Assembly (NCBI GenBank): GCA_027037705.1
Contig: JALVYZ010000460.1
Location: forward strand, 1-5,923
Source of the DNA: a bacterium
GTDB lineage: Bacteria; DYJV01; JALVYZ01
Length of the DNA stretch: 5,923 nucleotides
Direction: 5' to 3'
The notes beneath the pieces were generated by a model that saw only the letters and a list, made by a program, of their open reading frames with translations, made no database searches and was not told the DNA's origin. Each line of letters begins with the position of its first letter. Position 1 is the first letter of the stretch. This document shows, in pieces, positions 800 to 5,923 of the stretch. The position numbers were made by a program, and so were the translations under genes.

Positions 800-862
800 A
801 TGAAGGTAAAAAAAGTAGTAAAAAAATCATCTGGTCTTTGTAAATGTGGAAGCTCTTGCTAA
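800..862 (+). CDS. 20-aa Cys-containing peptide, candidate RiPP precursor
   Basis: The gene encodes MKVKKVVKKSSGLCKCGSSC and ends with TAA. The first half is basic and low in complexity, with six Lys, and would serve as a short leader. The last seven residues, CKCGSSC, hold three Cys (14, 16, 20) plus Ser and Gly, and would be the core. A complete expression unit frames it: a near-consensus promoter, an ideal Shine-Dalgarno site, and hairpin/T-tract structures directly after the stop. The next gene is a radical SAM/SPASM enzyme with a RiPP-recognition-like segment, the usual partner of such peptides. I infer that the enzyme modifies the core, for example by thioether or other Cys-linked chemistry. 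I do not recognise the peptide family. It is much shorter than the SCIFF (six-Cys) precursors that pair with other SPASM enzymes. Being a real gene is likely; the precursor role is fairly likely; the final product is unknown. Confidence 0.72.
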   Translation: MKVKKVVKKSSGLCKCGSSC

Positions 863-877
863 TTAGCAAGAATTTTT
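854..877 (+). terminator. First hairpin/T-tract after the peptide gene
   Basis: Bases 854-871 form a perfect 18-bp palindrome (TCTTGCT, loop AATT, AGCAAGA), followed by TTTTT at 873-877. It overlaps the last codons and stop of the peptide gene; the TAA straddles the stem and loop. It may act as a weak terminator or as a 3'-end-stabilising stem working with the stronger hairpin just downstream. Confidence 0.45.
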
Positions 878-882
878 AGCTT

Positions 883-906
883 GCCCGGTTTTAACCGGGC
901 TTTTTT
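883..906 (+). terminator. Strong intrinsic terminator between peptide gene and maturase gene
   Basis: GCCCGGT (883-889) pairs with ACCGGGC (894-900) around a four-base loop, and six T follow (901-906). This is a textbook Rho-independent terminator and by far the most GC-rich element in its surroundings. It stops just before the radical SAM start codon at 910. Expression of that gene would therefore depend on readthrough, giving much more peptide mRNA than maturase mRNA, an arrangement common in RiPP operons. Confidence 0.85.
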
Positions 907-909
907 ATT

Positions 910-2343
910 ATGGAAAAATTAAAAGATAAAATTTGTAGAAAATTTTGTTTCTTTTTTAAAGAAAATAAAGAATTACCATTAGAAGAAAAATGTGGGACAT
1001 TTCGATTTTTTTATAATCATCAAAATTTATTAAAAGATTTAACTCCCTCAAAAAAGATAAATTCAGAAATTAATAAAAAAATTATTAATTATTTTTGTAA
1101 ACCAATATGTGATTACTATATTAAAGACTGTGATTGGACAAATCCAGAGATTAAAAATAAAATTGAACCATGTGGTGGCTTTTATTTTTTACAAGAATTA
1201 TTTAATAAATATGTTATTCTGCAAGAAGAATTTTTTATTAAAAAACTTGAAAATTTGTTTCTATTTGACAGGAAAAGAGATGAACTTTACGAGCTTGATG
1301 AAAATGCTCTTGAATTTTTTAAAAATTGTGATGGTTCGCATAAACTTTATGAAATAATAAAAGATTTTGAAACTACAATTTATTTAATTGAAAATGGAAT
1401 AATAAAATTAAGTAAAGAAAAAAAATCAAAGAAGATAAAGCTTCCTAATATTGAAATCCCTTCTCCAAGTCTAAGATATCTTGAAATTCAGTTAACTTAT
1501 TCATGTAATTTAAGCTGTAAACATTGTTATCTTGGAAATAAAGAAAACATTCATTTAGATTTTAATTTATTAAAGAGGATTTTAGATGAATTTGAAGAGC
1601 TTCAAGGACTAAGAGTTCTTTTTTCTGGTGGGGAACCTTTTTTATACAAATATATTTATGAATTATTAGATTTACTTGAAAAATATTCGTTTAGAAGGGT
1701 TTTTATTTCAAATGGAACTTTAATTAAGAAAGATTTGCTTAAAAATATTGACCAAATTCAAATTAGTTTAGATGGCCTTGAAAAATCTCATGACTTTATA
1801 AGAGGAAAAGGAACTTTTAAAAAAATATTAGAAAATATAGAACTTATAAAATCACAAAATATTGATATCTCAATTGCAACAATGATTCACAAAAAAAATT
1901 TAAATGAATTTGATGAGCTTGAAAAATTGATTAAATCTATTGGTGTAGTTGAATGGGGAATTGATGTGCCAGTAGTAGAGGGGAATTTAAAGAATCATGA
2001 ATACTTATTAGTAACTCCAGAAGAGGCAAAATATCCTTTAAGTAAAAAATTTGGAGGGAGTTTTCACGAGCCTTTATCAGGATATGCTTGTGGTGCTCAT
2101 TTATCCACTATTTTTCCAGATGGGAAAATAGCTAAATGTGGATTTTATTATAATAATGCATATGCAGATTTAAATGATGATTTTTTAATAGAAGCTTTGA
2201 ATAATAAAGAAAATCTGAAACTTAATAATCTTGAATGTAATAAAATTCAATGTAAATTTTTAGAAGAGTGTAGAGGTGGTTGTAGATACAGAGCTGGTGA
2301 TGAATTAAAAAAAGATTGTTATATGTGTGTATTATTTTCTTAA
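910..2343 (+). CDS. Radical SAM/SPASM peptide maturase with PqqD-like recognition segment
   Basis: This 477-aa protein has four parts. Residues 1-100 form a Cys-rich region with C9, C13, C28, C63, C67, C74 and C88, including two CG(T/G)F motifs. Residues about 115-168 (LFDRKRDELYELDENALEFF... to ENGIIKL) look like a PqqD/RRE winged helix that would bind a peptide leader. Residues about 188-370 are the radical SAM core, with the CNLSCKHC motif (C199, C203, C206) that binds the SAM-cleaving 4Fe-4S cluster, and SGGEP at 239-243. Residues about 390-477 are a SPASM domain with C394, C410, C443, C448, C454, C458, C470 and C473 for auxiliary clusters. Its likely substrate is the 20-aa Cys peptide encoded just upstream. 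No Shine-Dalgarno site precedes the ATG, which lies four bases after the terminator T-run. An in-frame TAA at 892-894 rules out a longer form. The enzyme class is firm; the substrate is inferred and the bond formed is unknown. Confidence 0.88.
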   Translation: MEKLKDKICRKFCFFFKENKELPLEEKCGTFRFFYNHQNLLKDLTPSKKINSEINKKIINYFCKPICDYYIKDCDWTNPEIKNKIEPCGGFYFLQELFNKYVILQEEFFIKKLENLFLFDRKRDELYELDENALEFFKNCDGSHKLYEIIKDFETTIYLIENGIIKLSKEKKSKKIKLPNIEIPSPSLRYLEIQLTYSCNLSCKHCYLGNKENIHLDFNLLKRILDEFEELQGLRVLFSGGEPFLYKYIYELLDLLEKYSFRRVFISNGTLIKKDLLKNIDQIQISLDGLEKSHDFIRGKGTFKKILENIELIKSQNIDISIATMIHKKNLNEFDELEKLIKSIGVVEWGIDVPVVEGNLKNHEYLLVTPEEAKYPLSKKFGGSFHEPLSGYACGAHLSTIFPDGKIAKCGFYYNNAYADLNDDFLIEALNNKENLKLNNLECNKIQCKFLEECRGGCRYRAGDELKKDCYMCVLFS

Positions 2344-2918
2344 TAAGATGTTTTTAAAATTCCTTTTGTAAATATTTCAACAAAGTATTCTGAAAGTTTG
2401 TCAGGCTTTATACTGCCATTAGGATGATACCATTTAATTGTATAATGAACCATTCCAAAAAAACTAAAAGCAAGGACTGTTAAAGGAATATCTTTTAATT
2501 TTCCCTGTAAGTTTAATTCATTAAAAATTGATTTTATAAGGTTTAAATATTTTTTTTCTTTTTCAATTAAAATTTTTTTGTATTTTTCATTTAACGAATT
2601 AAGTTCATTTACAAGTAATATTAAATCATTTTGTTTGCTAACATAGTATTTTGAATAAAATTTTAATACATTTTTTAATTTTTCTTCAGGAGAAATATTC
2701 ATTTTTGAAATTTTTTCTAAATTTTGTAATGCTTCATCCATTACATTATCTAATATTTCAAATAAAATTTGTTCCTTACTTTTAAAATAATGATACAAAG
2801 TGGCTTTTGTTATATCTAAATTTTCAGAAATTTCCCTCATTGAAGTCGCTGCATAACCTTTTTTTGCAAAAAGTTCAGTTGCAGCATTTATTATTTCATT
2901 ATATCTATTTCTCCTCAT
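2340..2918 (-). CDS. TetR-family transcriptional regulator, probably acyl-CoA responsive
   Basis: At 192 aa it has the normal TetR length. The N-terminal DNA-binding domain (residues about 5-50) shows the family pattern AATELFAKKGYAATSMREI followed by the recognition helix region ITKATLYHYFKSKEQIL. The rest is a mostly helical ligand-binding and dimerisation domain ending in KWYHPNGSIKPDKLSEYF...FTKGI. This tail resembles TetR proteins that control fatty-acid or sterol-CoA genes. The start at 2918 is supported by AGAGGA ending 6 bases upstream, which overlaps the stop codon of the dehydrogenase gene; the gap between the genes is only 9 bases. It is thus the last gene of the acyl-CoA operon and probably represses that operon from a site outside the window. 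Its stop overlaps the stop of the convergent radical SAM gene. The family is certain; the ligand is inferred from context. Confidence 0.9.
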   Translation of the reverse strand: MRRNRYNEIINAATELFAKKGYAATSMREISENLDITKATLYHYFKSKEQILFEILDNVMDEALQNLEKISKMNISPEEKLKNVLKFYSKYYVSKQNDLILLVNELNSLNEKYKKILIEKEKKYLNLIKSIFNELNLQGKLKDIPLTVLAFSFFGMVHYTIKWYHPNGSIKPDKLSEYFVEIFTKGILKTSY

Positions 2919-2927
2919 TTATATCCT

Positions 2928-4079
2928 CTAATACATTGCATTTATTCCAAGTAATTCTCTTCCAATTGTTAATTTATGCATTTCAGATGTCCCACCTAAA
3001 ATGTTTGATAAAATTGAATCAAGATAATGATGAGCAACAGGATATTCATCAGAACATCCATAAGCACCATGAATTCTAATTGCTTCTTCAGAAGCTCTAA
3101 CAGCAAGTTCAGAACTTAACCATTTTGCAGCAGATAGCTCTTTAGCATGAGGTAGACCTTTATCTTTTAAATATGCAGCATAATATACTTGCCATCTAAT
3201 TGAACTAATTTCTGCATACATTTTTGCAATTTTTTCTTGAATTAATTGAAAACCTCCAATTGGCTTTCCAAATTGTTCACGTTCTTTTGCATATTTTATT
3301 GACCAATCAAGACAACTTTGAGCCATTCCAATACATCCAGCAGATATAAATAATCTTGCAGTATCAATGCCTTTTAAAGCATTCTGCAAACCTCTTCCAA
3401 CTTTTCCAATTACATTCTCTTTTGGTATTTTACAATCATCAAAATATAGATTGGCAATATCTCCAGCTCTATCACCTATTAAGTCATTTCTCATTGCTGA
3501 AAAGCCTGGTGTATCTTTATCAAGTATAATTAATACCATCCCTTTTGGGCCAAGAGATTTATCAGTCTGAGCAAGAACTATGATATAATCAGCAATATTT
3601 CCTGCACTTATAAAATTTTTACTTCCATTTATTATCCAGTAATTTCCTTTTAGTTCAGCTTTTGTTTCAATTGCTCTTGCATCTGAACCTGCATTAGGTT
3701 CTACAGTTGCAACAGCAATTATTTTTTCACCTTTGCATAGTGGGGGAAGATATTTTTTTTTCTGTTCTTCACTCGCACAGTGAAGTAAAATTGTGCCAGC
3801 TAAAACTCCATGTCCAAGGGATACAAGGGTTTGGGTCCAGCTTGCCCAGCTTAATTGTTCCCAGACAATTACACTTGAAACATAGTCAAGTCCACTCCCG
3901 CCATACTCTTTGGGCAAGTGGATTCCAATAAAACCTGTTTCTCCCATCTTTTTTATTAAATCAAAATTAATTTTTCTTTTTAATTCAAATTCTCTCAATG
4001 TAGGAAGCATTTCTTTTTCTGCAAATTTTCTTGCAACATCTTTTAACATTTTTTGTTCATCTGTTAATTCAAAATCCAT
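2928..4079 (-). CDS. Acyl-CoA dehydrogenase-family flavoprotein lacking both usual catalytic Glu positions
   Basis: This 383-aa FAD enzyme has the standard family length. The N-terminal helical domain starts MDFELTDEQKML, and GFIGIHLPKEYGGSG follows. The flavin/substrate beta domain has VEPNAGSDA (126-134) and NGSKNFISAG (151-160). The C-terminal helical domain has EREQFGKPIGGFQLIQ (266-281), IHGAYG and GGTSEMHKLTIGRELLG. I chose the ATG at 4079 because AAGGAGG (4085-4091, minus strand) sits 5 bases before it. A GTG at 4118 would add 13 residues, but it has no such site and turns this Shine-Dalgarno sequence into codons. The glutamate base of medium-chain enzymes (YEGT) is G362 here. The alternative base of isovaleryl-CoA and long-chain enzymes, just before the conserved Arg242, is A241. 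The protein may therefore be an acyl-CoA reductase, a desulfinase-like enzyme, or a dehydrogenase with a relocated base. The neighbours point to acyl-CoA catabolism. Confidence 0.9.
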   Translation of the reverse strand: MDFELTDEQKMLKDVARKFAEKEMLPTLREFELKRKINFDLIKKMGETGFIGIHLPKEYGGSGLDYVSSVIVWEQLSWASWTQTLVSLGHGVLAGTILLHCASEEQKKKYLPPLCKGEKIIAVATVEPNAGSDARAIETKAELKGNYWIINGSKNFISAGNIADYIIVLAQTDKSLGPKGMVLIILDKDTPGFSAMRNDLIGDRAGDIANLYFDDCKIPKENVIGKVGRGLQNALKGIDTARLFISAGCIGMAQSCLDWSIKYAKEREQFGKPIGGFQLIQEKIAKMYAEISSIRWQVYYAAYLKDKGLPHAKELSAAKWLSSELAVRASEEAIRIHGAYGCSDEYPVAHHYLDSILSNILGGTSEMHKLTIGRELLGINAMY

Positions 4080-4084
4080 TTTTT

Positions 4085-4091
4085 CCTCCTT
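4085..4091 (-). promoter_or_regulatory. Shine-Dalgarno site that fixes the acyl-CoA dehydrogenase start
   Basis: On the minus strand this reads AAGGAGG, 5 bases before the ATG at 4079. It is a near-perfect ribosome binding site and decides against the longer GTG start at 4118. The remaining gap up to the carboxyltransferase stop (4092-4151) shows no convincing promoter or terminator, so the two genes are probably co-transcribed. Confidence 0.8.
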
Positions 4092-4151
4092 GCAAATCCT
4101 ATTCTTAATCTCCAACACAATAACTATTTGATATTAATATTTTTTGTTAGT

Positions 4152-5711
4152 TTATAACGGCATGTTATCATGCCATTTATTCTTAAAAGGTTCTCTTAAT
4201 TTATTTTTTAATAGTTCAAAATGGTTAATTGCATATTTTCTTATATCCTTTGGTTCAATTATATCATCTATGTAAGAGACTTTTGATGCAATTGCAATTG
4301 AATCAGCATATTCTTTTCTATATTCTTCAATTTTCTCCTTTAAAAATTTTTCTTTATCTTCAGCTTTATCTAATTCATCTTTATAGAATAACTGAACTGC
4401 CTGTTCTGCACCCATTGGACCTATTTCAGCAGTTGGAAGTGCAAATACAAAATCAGTCCCAAACCCAGGTAAGATCCCCATTCCAAGAGCAGCTCCACCA
4501 TAAACTTTTCTTAATAAAATCGCAATCTTAGGGACAGTAGCTTCAGATAAAGCAAACAATACCTTTGCTCCATGTCTGATAATCCCTTCATATTCTTGCT
4601 GTTTTCCAGGTAAATATCCAGGAGTGTCAACTAATAAAAGTAAAGGGATATTAAATGAATCACAAAATCTTATAAATCTTGCCTGCTTAAATGAACTCTC
4701 AACAGTCATGCATCCTGCTTTTACTATCGGTTGATTAGCAACTATACCAACTGTTTTTCCATTCAATCTTGCAAATCCAATAACTACTTCTTGAGCAAAT
4801 TCCTTTTTAATCTCTAAAAATTCTTCATTATCAACAATAGATTTTATTACCTTTTTTACATCATAACCTGTTTTAGGATTTTCTGGAATTATATTCTCAA
4901 TTTCTATACATTCTCTAACTGGTGAATCTTTACATTTTATAACAGGAGGCAATTCTTTGTAATTAGAAGGTAAAAATGATAATAGTTTCCTTATCTCTTT
5001 AAAACATTCTATTTCAGAGTTTACCCTAAAATCGCATATTCCTGTAATTTGACTGTGAATTTTTGCACCACCAAGAGTTTCTAAATCAACTTTTTCTCCA
5101 GTAACTTTTTCTATAACTCTTGGTCCTGTAATAAACATTCTTGATATTCCATCTACCATAAAAATAAAATCTGTTAATGCTGGAGAATAAACAGAACCAC
5201 CAGTACAGTTCCCTAAAATCGCTGAAATTTGAGGAATTGTTCCAGAGCATTTTGTATTTATGTAAAAAACAACCCCAGCATGTTTTTCATCGCTAACTTT
5301 ATACGGATCATCACTTCCAGCTAAATCTGGTCTGATTACTCTTGCTCCAGGAGAATCATTTAATCCAATTATTGGTATACCAGATTTTAATGCAATTTCA
5401 TAAATTTTATATAACTTTTTACCATGCATATATCCTTGAGAGCCGCCAAAAACAGAAGCATCATGTGCAAACACACAAATCTTTCTCCCATCAATTGTAC
5501 CATGTCCAATAATTATACCATCTCCGGGAGCTCCAACATTATATTTCACCAATAAATTAATTTCCTGAAAGCTTCCTTCATCTAAAAGTAAATCTATTCT
5601 TTCTCGAGGAGTTAATTTTCCTTTTTCTTTTATCTTTTTTAATTTTTCAATTCCTCCACCTGATTTTGCTTCTTCTTTTACTTTTTTCAATCTATCAATT
5701 AAACTTTTCAT
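4152..5711 (-). CDS. Biotin-dependent acyl-CoA carboxyltransferase (PccB/MmdA-like beta subunit)
   Basis: At 519 aa the protein has the usual length of propionyl-CoA carboxylase beta or methylmalonyl-CoA decarboxylase alpha subunits. It has two crotonase-fold halves. The N-terminal half has KLTPRERIDLLLDEGSF (32-48), LNDSPGARV (117-125) and the oxyanion-hole region GNCTGGSVYSPALTDF (167-182). The C-terminal half has NQPIVKAGCMTVESSFKQARFIRFCD (326-351), LLLLVDTPGYLPGKQQE (357-373) and the second oxyanion region YGGAALGMG (404-412), then LPTAEIGPMGAEQAV. It would transfer a carboxyl group between carboxybiotin and an acyl-CoA; no biotin carboxylase or carrier gene is visible. The motif YGGAYDVM of propionyl-specific enzymes reads YGGAALGM, with Leu409 where the specificity Asp is expected, so propionyl-CoA should not be assumed. 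A decarboxylase role is also possible. AAGGGG lies 7 bases before the start, and the synthetase stop is 24 bases upstream. Confidence 0.9.
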   Translation of the reverse strand: MKSLIDRLKKVKEEAKSGGGIEKLKKIKEKGKLTPRERIDLLLDEGSFQEINLLVKYNVGAPGDGIIIGHGTIDGRKICVFAHDASVFGGSQGYMHGKKLYKIYEIALKSGIPIIGLNDSPGARVIRPDLAGSDDPYKVSDEKHAGVVFYINTKCSGTIPQISAILGNCTGGSVYSPALTDFIFMVDGISRMFITGPRVIEKVTGEKVDLETLGGAKIHSQITGICDFRVNSEIECFKEIRKLLSFLPSNYKELPPVIKCKDSPVRECIEIENIIPENPKTGYDVKKVIKSIVDNEEFLEIKKEFAQEVVIGFARLNGKTVGIVANQPIVKAGCMTVESSFKQARFIRFCDSFNIPLLLLVDTPGYLPGKQQEYEGIIRHGAKVLFALSEATVPKIAILLRKVYGGAALGMGILPGFGTDFVFALPTAEIGPMGAEQAVQLFYKDELDKAEDKEKFLKEKIEEYRKEYADSIAIASKVSYIDDIIEPKDIRKYAINHFELLKNKLREPFKNKWHDNMPL

Positions 5712-5735
5712 TCTTTTTCCCCTTTTTATAAATTA

Positions 5736-5923
5736 TCATTTATTAAATTCTCTTTCTCTTAAAACTCTTTTTAGAATTTTTCCAGTTGGATTTTTAGGGA
5801 CTTCGTTCATAAATTCAATAATTTTTGGGACTTTATATTTTGCTAAATTTTGTTTACAAAACTCTATAATTTTTTCTTCATCTATTTTTTTACCTTCTTT
5901 TAAAACAATACAAGCTTTAACAA
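5736..5923 (-). CDS. C-terminal end of an acyl-CoA synthetase (AMP-forming), cut by window edge
   Basis: The last 61 codons, ending with TGA at 5736-5738, read VKACIVLKEGKKIDEEKIIE, then FCKQNLAKYKVPKIIEFMNE and VPKNPTGKILKRVLRE. This is the mobile C-terminal domain of the adenylate-forming ligase superfamily. KYKVPK and PTGKILKR are its signatures, and the Lys of PTGK is the residue that contacts acyl-adenylate in the first half-reaction. The enzyme activates a carboxylic acid with ATP to its CoA thioester in the cytoplasm. The rest of the gene lies beyond 5923, so chain-length preference cannot be judged. It is the most upstream visible gene of the minus-strand operon and would supply the CoA esters used by the carboxyltransferase and dehydrogenase encoded after it. 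Confidence 0.9.
   Translation of the reverse strand, partial: VKACIVLKEGKKIDEEKIIEFCKQNLAKYKVPKIIEFMNEVPKNPTGKILKRVLREREFNK

Follow-up and report, generated by a model that had tools for sequence, protein, structure and literature searches.

Radical-SAM RiPPs are a known kind of system. SkfB and SuiB, the best structural matches listed for the enzyme described here, carry a leader-binding (RRE) domain, a radical-SAM domain and a SPASM domain in that order, and thioethers are the products of many characterised SPASM enzymes whose precursors are rich in Cys. The PQQ system (PqqA/PqqE/PqqD) combines a very short precursor with a SPASM maturase and PqqD-like recognition and has no exporter; SCIFF and the clostridial CcpA/CcpM systems place a Cys-rich peptide beside a SPASM maturase; and SbtA/SbtM (TIGR04081/TIGR04082) likewise join a radical-SAM/SPASM maturase to a Cys-containing precursor; SbtA is marked by an LKK(I/L)LAG leader and by S-(C/U)-(S/G) repeats. 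SbtM, cited in PMC12668002 for making thiooxazoles, is the one radical-SAM enzyme reported to do so. Captophorins (bufferins, oxazolin, fontiphorin and bulbicupramide) are precursors with Cys and Lys-Cys/Cys-Lys motifs that carry 5-thiooxazoles and are associated with copper (PMC12668002); bulbicupramide has thiooxazoles at Lys-Cys-Gly and binds Cu(I) (PMC12538549). Their modifying enzymes are MNIOs (non-haem iron enzymes), and the peptides exceed 20 residues in length, with signal peptides in the bufferins.

We analysed a contig of 5,923 nucleotides (hereafter the window) that encodes a 20-residue peptide ending in CKCGSSC and, next to it, a maturase with the domain order of SkfB and SuiB. 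As in other radical-SAM/SPASM RiPPs, a short conserved precursor is encoded and co-occurs with a SPASM enzyme; however, the enzyme shares only ~18% identity with SkfB and SuiB, has an extra N-terminal Cys-rich domain and is paired with a 20-residue CKCxxSC precursor. Unlike the captophorins, the system uses a radical-SAM enzyme and a 20-mer without a signal peptide. No MNIO (DUF692) gene was found in the window, the conserved enzyme being a radical-SAM protein, and an association with copper, judged by gene neighbourhood, was seen for a CKCHxSC paralogue only. In contrast to PQQ, the core is rich in Cys and lacks Glu-Tyr, PqqB/C/F-type genes were not noticed, and PqqE (TIGR02109) is absent from the best 25 NCBIfam matches of the enzyme. 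The peptide pattern also differs from those of SCIFF and CcpA; membership of CcpM was rejected at 60 bits (cut-off 500), and no SCIFF maturase model is among the same best 25 matches. SbtM was rejected at 67 bits (cut-off 350). Of 40 peptides compared with the SbtA model, three come close to it (best E 0.099) and none exceeds the TIGR04081 cut-off, the genes that do exceed it in those genomes being different ones encoded elsewhere, so that SbtA membership was also rejected. Genuine SbtA-type precursors coexist with the CKCxxSC system in the same Desulfobacterota genomes (L282-L286, L289 and L290), most of them with an in-frame TGA (probable selenocysteine).

None of the NCBIfam equivalogs was reached by the window maturase (best 91 bits against a cut-off of 400), no NCBIfam or Pfam model names the peptide or the maturase, and a literature search on the core strings returned no match. 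The first-pass annotation, made from the window alone, had proposed an undescribed RiPP system that it could not place in SCIFF, and this stands within the NCBIfam, Pfam and literature searched. As far as these libraries and papers show, the family, its fixed 20-residue precursor, the copper-operon paralogues, the Cys-rich partner and an RNA element upstream are undescribed. Three of these, namely the copper-operon paralogue, the separate Cys-rich domain (residues 1-97) and the conserved 5'-UTR RNA structure, had no place in the first-pass annotation.

The peptide gene and the maturase

The precursor, MKVKKVVKKSSGLCKCGSSC, is encoded at 800-862 on the forward strand, as are all features described here unless stated otherwise. 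It comprises a leader, MKVKKVVKKSSGL (800-838), and the core CKCGSSC (839-859), followed by the stop codon (860-862). This 20-codon frame is a real gene. The codon pattern TGY-AAR-TGY-GGN-S-S-TGY of the core has a single match in the window and none in 200 shuffles of it, and a Shine-Dalgarno sequence, AAGGAGG (787-793), lies 6 nt 5' of the ATG. A sigma-70-like promoter (TTGACA-17-TAAAAT, 718-746), called from its match to the consensus only, agrees at 11 of 12 positions and is the top sigma-70 match of the whole window, in which promoter-like sites are fewer than expected (22, against 33.9 in shuffles). A weak terminator-like hairpin overlaps the end of the peptide gene (854-871), and an intrinsic terminator, GCCCGGTTTTAACCGGGC-TTTTTT (883-906; hairpin 883-900 followed by T6), lies between the peptide and maturase genes, where it would probably keep the ratio of peptide to enzyme high. 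The short gene, a promoter, a Shine-Dalgarno site and terminators had all been listed in the first-pass annotation and were all recovered.

The maturase (910-2343) is a protein of 477 residues. Its radical-SAM domain (PF04055, 1.3e-21; barrel at residues ~190-380) contains the cluster motif CNLSCKHC (residues 199-206; 1504-1527), and eight cysteines at positions 394, 410, 443, 448, 454, 458, 470 and 473 (2089-2328) form the auxiliary-cluster set of the SPASM domain, in agreement with the radical-SAM and Cys-rich SPASM assignments made beforehand. The AlphaFold model of the maturase has a mean pLDDT of 94.1 and a pTM of 0.91, and the highest-scoring structures among those listed are SkfB, at Z 24.9, and SuiB, at Z 24.2 with an alignment over residues 101-477, with the sactipeptide maturase 5wgg/5why among the nearest structures. 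A PqqD-like segment had also been proposed. The PqqD domain gave no Pfam match in the maturase, and the model aligns with SuiB from residue 101, leader-binding domain included, so that an RRE/PqqD-like domain at residues ~101-170 (1210-1419) is predicted by fold only. Matches in plasmids were partial radical-SAM stretches only.

Residues 1-97 (910-1200) form a Cys-rich domain (Cys 9, 13, 28, 63, 67, 74 and 88) with seven invariant cysteines and no Pfam match. In many relatives this domain is a separate gene of ~105-135 residues upstream of the maturase, between peptide and enzyme; about ten relatives have it fused to the enzyme, as in the window, and in others a shorter form of ~78 residues precedes the enzyme. 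It probably carries an Fe-S centre.

The gene pair is preceded by a rhodanese-family protein cut by the contig start (2-703; PF00581, 1.5e-32), a possible functional neighbour. The remainder of the window (2340-5921, reverse strand) encodes a TetR regulator, an acyl-CoA dehydrogenase, a carboxyltransferase (carboxylase subunit) and the end of an AMP-ligase, and resembles an ordinary fatty-acid operon.

Conservation of the peptide and its pairing with the enzyme

Orthologues of the maturase (36-50% identity) were found in 16 of 385 other diverse genomes, and a scan with the maturase alignment added 80 further named loci, chiefly from Nitrospirota and Desulfobacterota but also from Methanoperedens archaea, Dehalococcoidia, Spirochaetes, Actinobacteria and Abyssobacteria. 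An ORF of 20-21 residues ending in CKCxxSC adjoins the maturase in 72 of 94 loci, or in 74 when a copy truncated at the edge of its contig and another lying ~1.5 kb upstream (L110) are added. Twenty genomes in which no copy sits directly beside the enzyme were searched, and 19 carry one elsewhere, L110 again being the case at ~1.5 kb. A profile built from 40 peptides and run against 386 genomes detected the peptide in all 17 genomes with a strong maturase orthologue and in none of the other 369 (p 5e-30, with genome relatedness ignored). Among 395 Nitrospirota genomes, with the enzyme called at E<=1e-40, the peptide was present in 121, the enzyme in 117 and both in 115 (p 2e-89, relatedness again ignored); genomes with the enzyme had one maturase match each, and the six with a peptide and no detected full maturase include some incomplete assemblies. 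The peptide is thus widespread in bacteria, extends to some archaea and is nearly confined to genomes that encode the maturase. The family occurs in about a third of the sampled Nitrospirota genomes as well as in Desulfobacterota, Methanoperedens and other lineages, and appears to have been hidden from annotation because its gene has only 20 codons. A scan of genome contigs with a single sequence recovered no relatives, whereas an alignment-based query recovered 288; the family, class and phylum of the window's own source are each represented by one or two genomes in the searched set.

Alignment of 132 distinct peptides showed that C14, K15, C16 and C20 are invariant and that I3, K5 and S19 are nearly so, with 122 of the 132 terminating exactly at C20. 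The lineages with such peptides, all of near-equal length and ending in CKCxxSC, include Nitrospirota, Desulfobacterota, Methanoperedens and Dehalococcoidia. Position 15 is always Lys and never Arg (0/132); the later peptide collection admitted only Lys or Arg at this position, yet the first look at the maturase loci imposed no Lys there and found Lys throughout. At the four invariant residues, codon positions 1 and 2 have zero entropy and position 3 ~0.9 bit, a pattern that indicates selection on the protein. A strong Shine-Dalgarno-like 5-mer lies at most 18 nt upstream in 142 of 154 homologous peptide genes. Some genomes hold extra precursor copies that are unlinked to the enzyme, and the copies within a genome differ. 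Distances between maturases correlate with those between peptide leaders (Mantel r 0.24, 0 of 500 permutations as high) and between peptide cores (r 0.15, 3 of 500).

The co-occurrence, the adjacency, the invariant core with free wobble positions and the RRE, radical-SAM and SPASM architecture bear out the dedicated peptide/maturase pair of the first-pass annotation, which had staked that proposal on two points: a conserved short Cys ORF does lie near the homologous maturases (72/94), and it is conserved at the codon level, with positions 1-2 invariant and position 3 free. The gene, the pairing and the architecture are supported by the data, and the pairing of enzyme and substrate is strongly supported by genomics.

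A His-containing paralogue and an upstream RNA element

In 27 bacterial copies the core reads CKCHxSC, with His at position 17. A co-directional copper-type gene (P-type ATPase, YHS-domain protein or thioredoxin reductase, Met-rich small protein, or multicopper oxidase) lies within 5 kb of 22 of these 27, whereas none of the 119 remaining copies from bacteria has such a neighbour (p 1e-21). When only copies unlinked to the enzyme were counted, the figures were 22 of 26 and 0 of 30 (p 7e-12); neither p-value allows for relatedness at a finer level, and genomes with several peptide copies were the source of many of these loci. The association recurs in at least 11 Nitrospirota families and is therefore not the property of one clade. 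Two of the neighbouring ATPases were checked with the TIGR01511 copper model and, at 608 and 636 bits, exceed its cut-off (397). The link between the His form and copper operons is thus supported by the data. In locus L238 the peptide gene lies inside the operon: a YHS-thioredoxin reductase gene precedes it, a Met-rich gene directly follows (likely start ~25 nt beyond the stop codon of the peptide), and genes of the YHS-Cu-ATPase and CusC types come next. CKCHxSC peptides were also seen in copper-resistance operons at L172, L179, L185, L187, L225, L229, L234, L248, L258, L264, L268 and others, often with genes for a small Met-rich protein and for a Cu P-type ATPase that has a YHS domain directly downstream of the peptide. 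The CKCGSSC peptide of the window is not of the His type and this 5.9-kb contig has no copper gene, so that a metal role for the window peptide would be an extrapolation.

Upstream of the peptide genes we observed one to three hairpins with ANGAA loops, the last of which overlaps the Shine-Dalgarno sequence. In the window, the tandem element (757-802) consists of hairpin 1, TTTCTCC-ATGAA-GGAGAAA (758-776), and hairpin 2, TCC-AAGAA-GGA (781-791), which overlaps the Shine-Dalgarno sequence; its MFE z is -2.1. With a hairpin defined as an [AG]NGAA loop closed by at least 4 pairs, at least one was present in 53 of 149 peptide upstreams, against 5.05 in dinucleotide shuffles, and ATGAA, AAGAA and ACGAA are the top three of all 1024 pentaloops in these regions. 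An alignment of 21 two-hairpin sequences had 89.6% paired cells and a covariation score of 0.557, compared with 0.162 ± 0.023 in shuffles (0 of 500 as high). The window copy, itself among the 21 training sequences, scored 42.6 bits and was the sole match in its source genome (G000), and in 37 genomes the top matches to the RNA element fall at peptide genes. Tandem hairpins also precede the peptide at, for example, L033, L171, L186, L269 and L270. Rfam gave no match across the window at gathering scores, nor at the element in relatives at E<=1, and a reading of the hairpins as CsrA sites was rejected because GGA is missing from many loops. Among bacterial copies, hairpins accompany 49 of 114 without the His and 1 of 27 with it (p 4e-5), a scarcity in line with separate regulation of the copper operons.

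Proposed function and alternatives

We favour, as rather probable, a new RiPP family in which a modified tri-cysteine 20-mer is kept in the cell as a soft-metal ligand, for Cu(I) in the case of the His form. The 20-residue ribosomal peptide would be translated beneath an RNA leader that occludes the Shine-Dalgarno sequence, and its Lys-rich leader, MKVKKVVKK, would dock on the RRE domain that the neighbouring SPASM radical-SAM enzyme carries, with the Cys-rich, probably Fe-S, domain assisting. The enzyme would then alter the C-terminal CKCxxSC core, and the modified peptide, which is not exported in this scheme, would serve the cell as a small ligand for soft metals. CKCHxSC peptides from copper-resistance operons would presumably be matured in trans by the same enzyme, giving a Cu(I) form; metal binding by the non-His form of the window is conjectured by extension. 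The first-pass annotation had suggested, from the lack of a visible protease or exporter, that the product might be cofactor-like or intracellular, and the loci examined are consistent with an intracellular product. As a 20-mer, the precursor is a synthetically accessible substrate for the maturase, the copper role is testable, and the RNA would represent a compact new control element.

The modification itself could be of thiooxazole or thioether type. Thiooxazole chemistry has precedents in the captophorins, in bulbicupramide and in SbtM; against it stands the lack of close similarity between the maturase and SbtM. The main rival to a thiooxazole is SkfB-like thioether formation of the sactipeptide or ranthipeptide type, a tentative but credible alternative in which a Cys sulfur would be joined to a neighbouring carbon, perhaps of Lys15, to give a cyclic product for which a metal role is optional. 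It would fit the thioether maturases among the nearest structures (SkfB and 5wgg/5why) and a position 15 that is never Arg in 132 copies, but it leaves few acceptor residues in a seven-residue core holding three Cys and does not by itself explain a His paralogue in copper operons. A fuller form of the soft-metal-ligand reading, which we regard as speculative and on balance doubtful, would see here a phylum-spanning radical-SAM route to minimal cytosolic copper-binding peptides, convergent with the MNIO-made captophorins. In it, Cys of the Cys-Lys-Cys core would become a ligand of the thiooxazole type, several unlinked precursors would share a single maturase, and a new class of RNA, the ANGAA tandem hairpins, would control translation of the main precursor.

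The non-His copies lie near varied genes (NifS/NifU/TusA, cupin and cytochromes), which suggests another or an additional role. A reading that we consider unlikely is a PQQ- or mycofactocin-like cofactor or redox peptide for cellular enzymes, with the copper-operon copies as a specialised offshoot: the tiny size, lack of an exporter, broad conservation, single maturase match per Nitrospirota genome and cytochrome c genes beside unlinked copies in several Nitrospirota are in keeping with it, but the 94 loci showed neither a peptidase nor a client enzyme that recurs, and several differing peptide copies per genome are unusual for a cofactor. NifS and NifU at some loci hint that sulfur or Fe-S is supplied to the system and raise the prospect of a sulfur- or Fe-S-handling peptide, a persulfide carrier or scaffold loaded via NifS, TusA or rhodanese. 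NifS-NifU-TusA genes lie directly 5' of the maturase in L032, L034 and L037, NifS/NifU adjoin L056, L065, L070 and L115, and rhodanese flanks the peptide copies of three Methanoperedens genomes as well as that of the window; such genes are common, however, occur at a minority of the loci and leave the copper link unexplained, and we judge this role quite improbable. Finally, an unmodified metallothionein-like micropeptide whose CxCxxxC could bind Cu(I), with a merely co-occurring maturase that acts on something else, is highly improbable given so exact a co-occurrence, the conserved leader and the RRE and SPASM maturase architecture of the enzyme.

Several other genes recur beside the system. 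A cupin-like protein of ~112 residues with a His-rich tail (GGHS...HHH) is encoded 3' of the maturase in L054, L066, L075, L094, L102, L110, L111, L114, L118 and L125, and on the opposite strand in several Nitrospirota. In L054, L060, L062, L105, L108 and L125, and also in L063, L079 and L103, the maturase gene has another radical-SAM gene of the SPASM type (FxQFYPTLRCNYSCxFCFN) as its neighbour. An ATP-grasp protein, perhaps a further tailoring enzyme, is encoded immediately 3' of the peptide in L056, L064, L065, L070, L077, L091 and L115. Flavoproteins of the disulfide-reductase family, CoA-disulfide-reductase-like or MerA-like and ending in SCCAE, lie 5' of the peptide or maturase in L061, L081, L092, L098 and L109, and in L073 and L093. 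Unlinked CKCK-type peptides adjoin small and membrane c-type cytochromes in L175, L184, L189 and L191.
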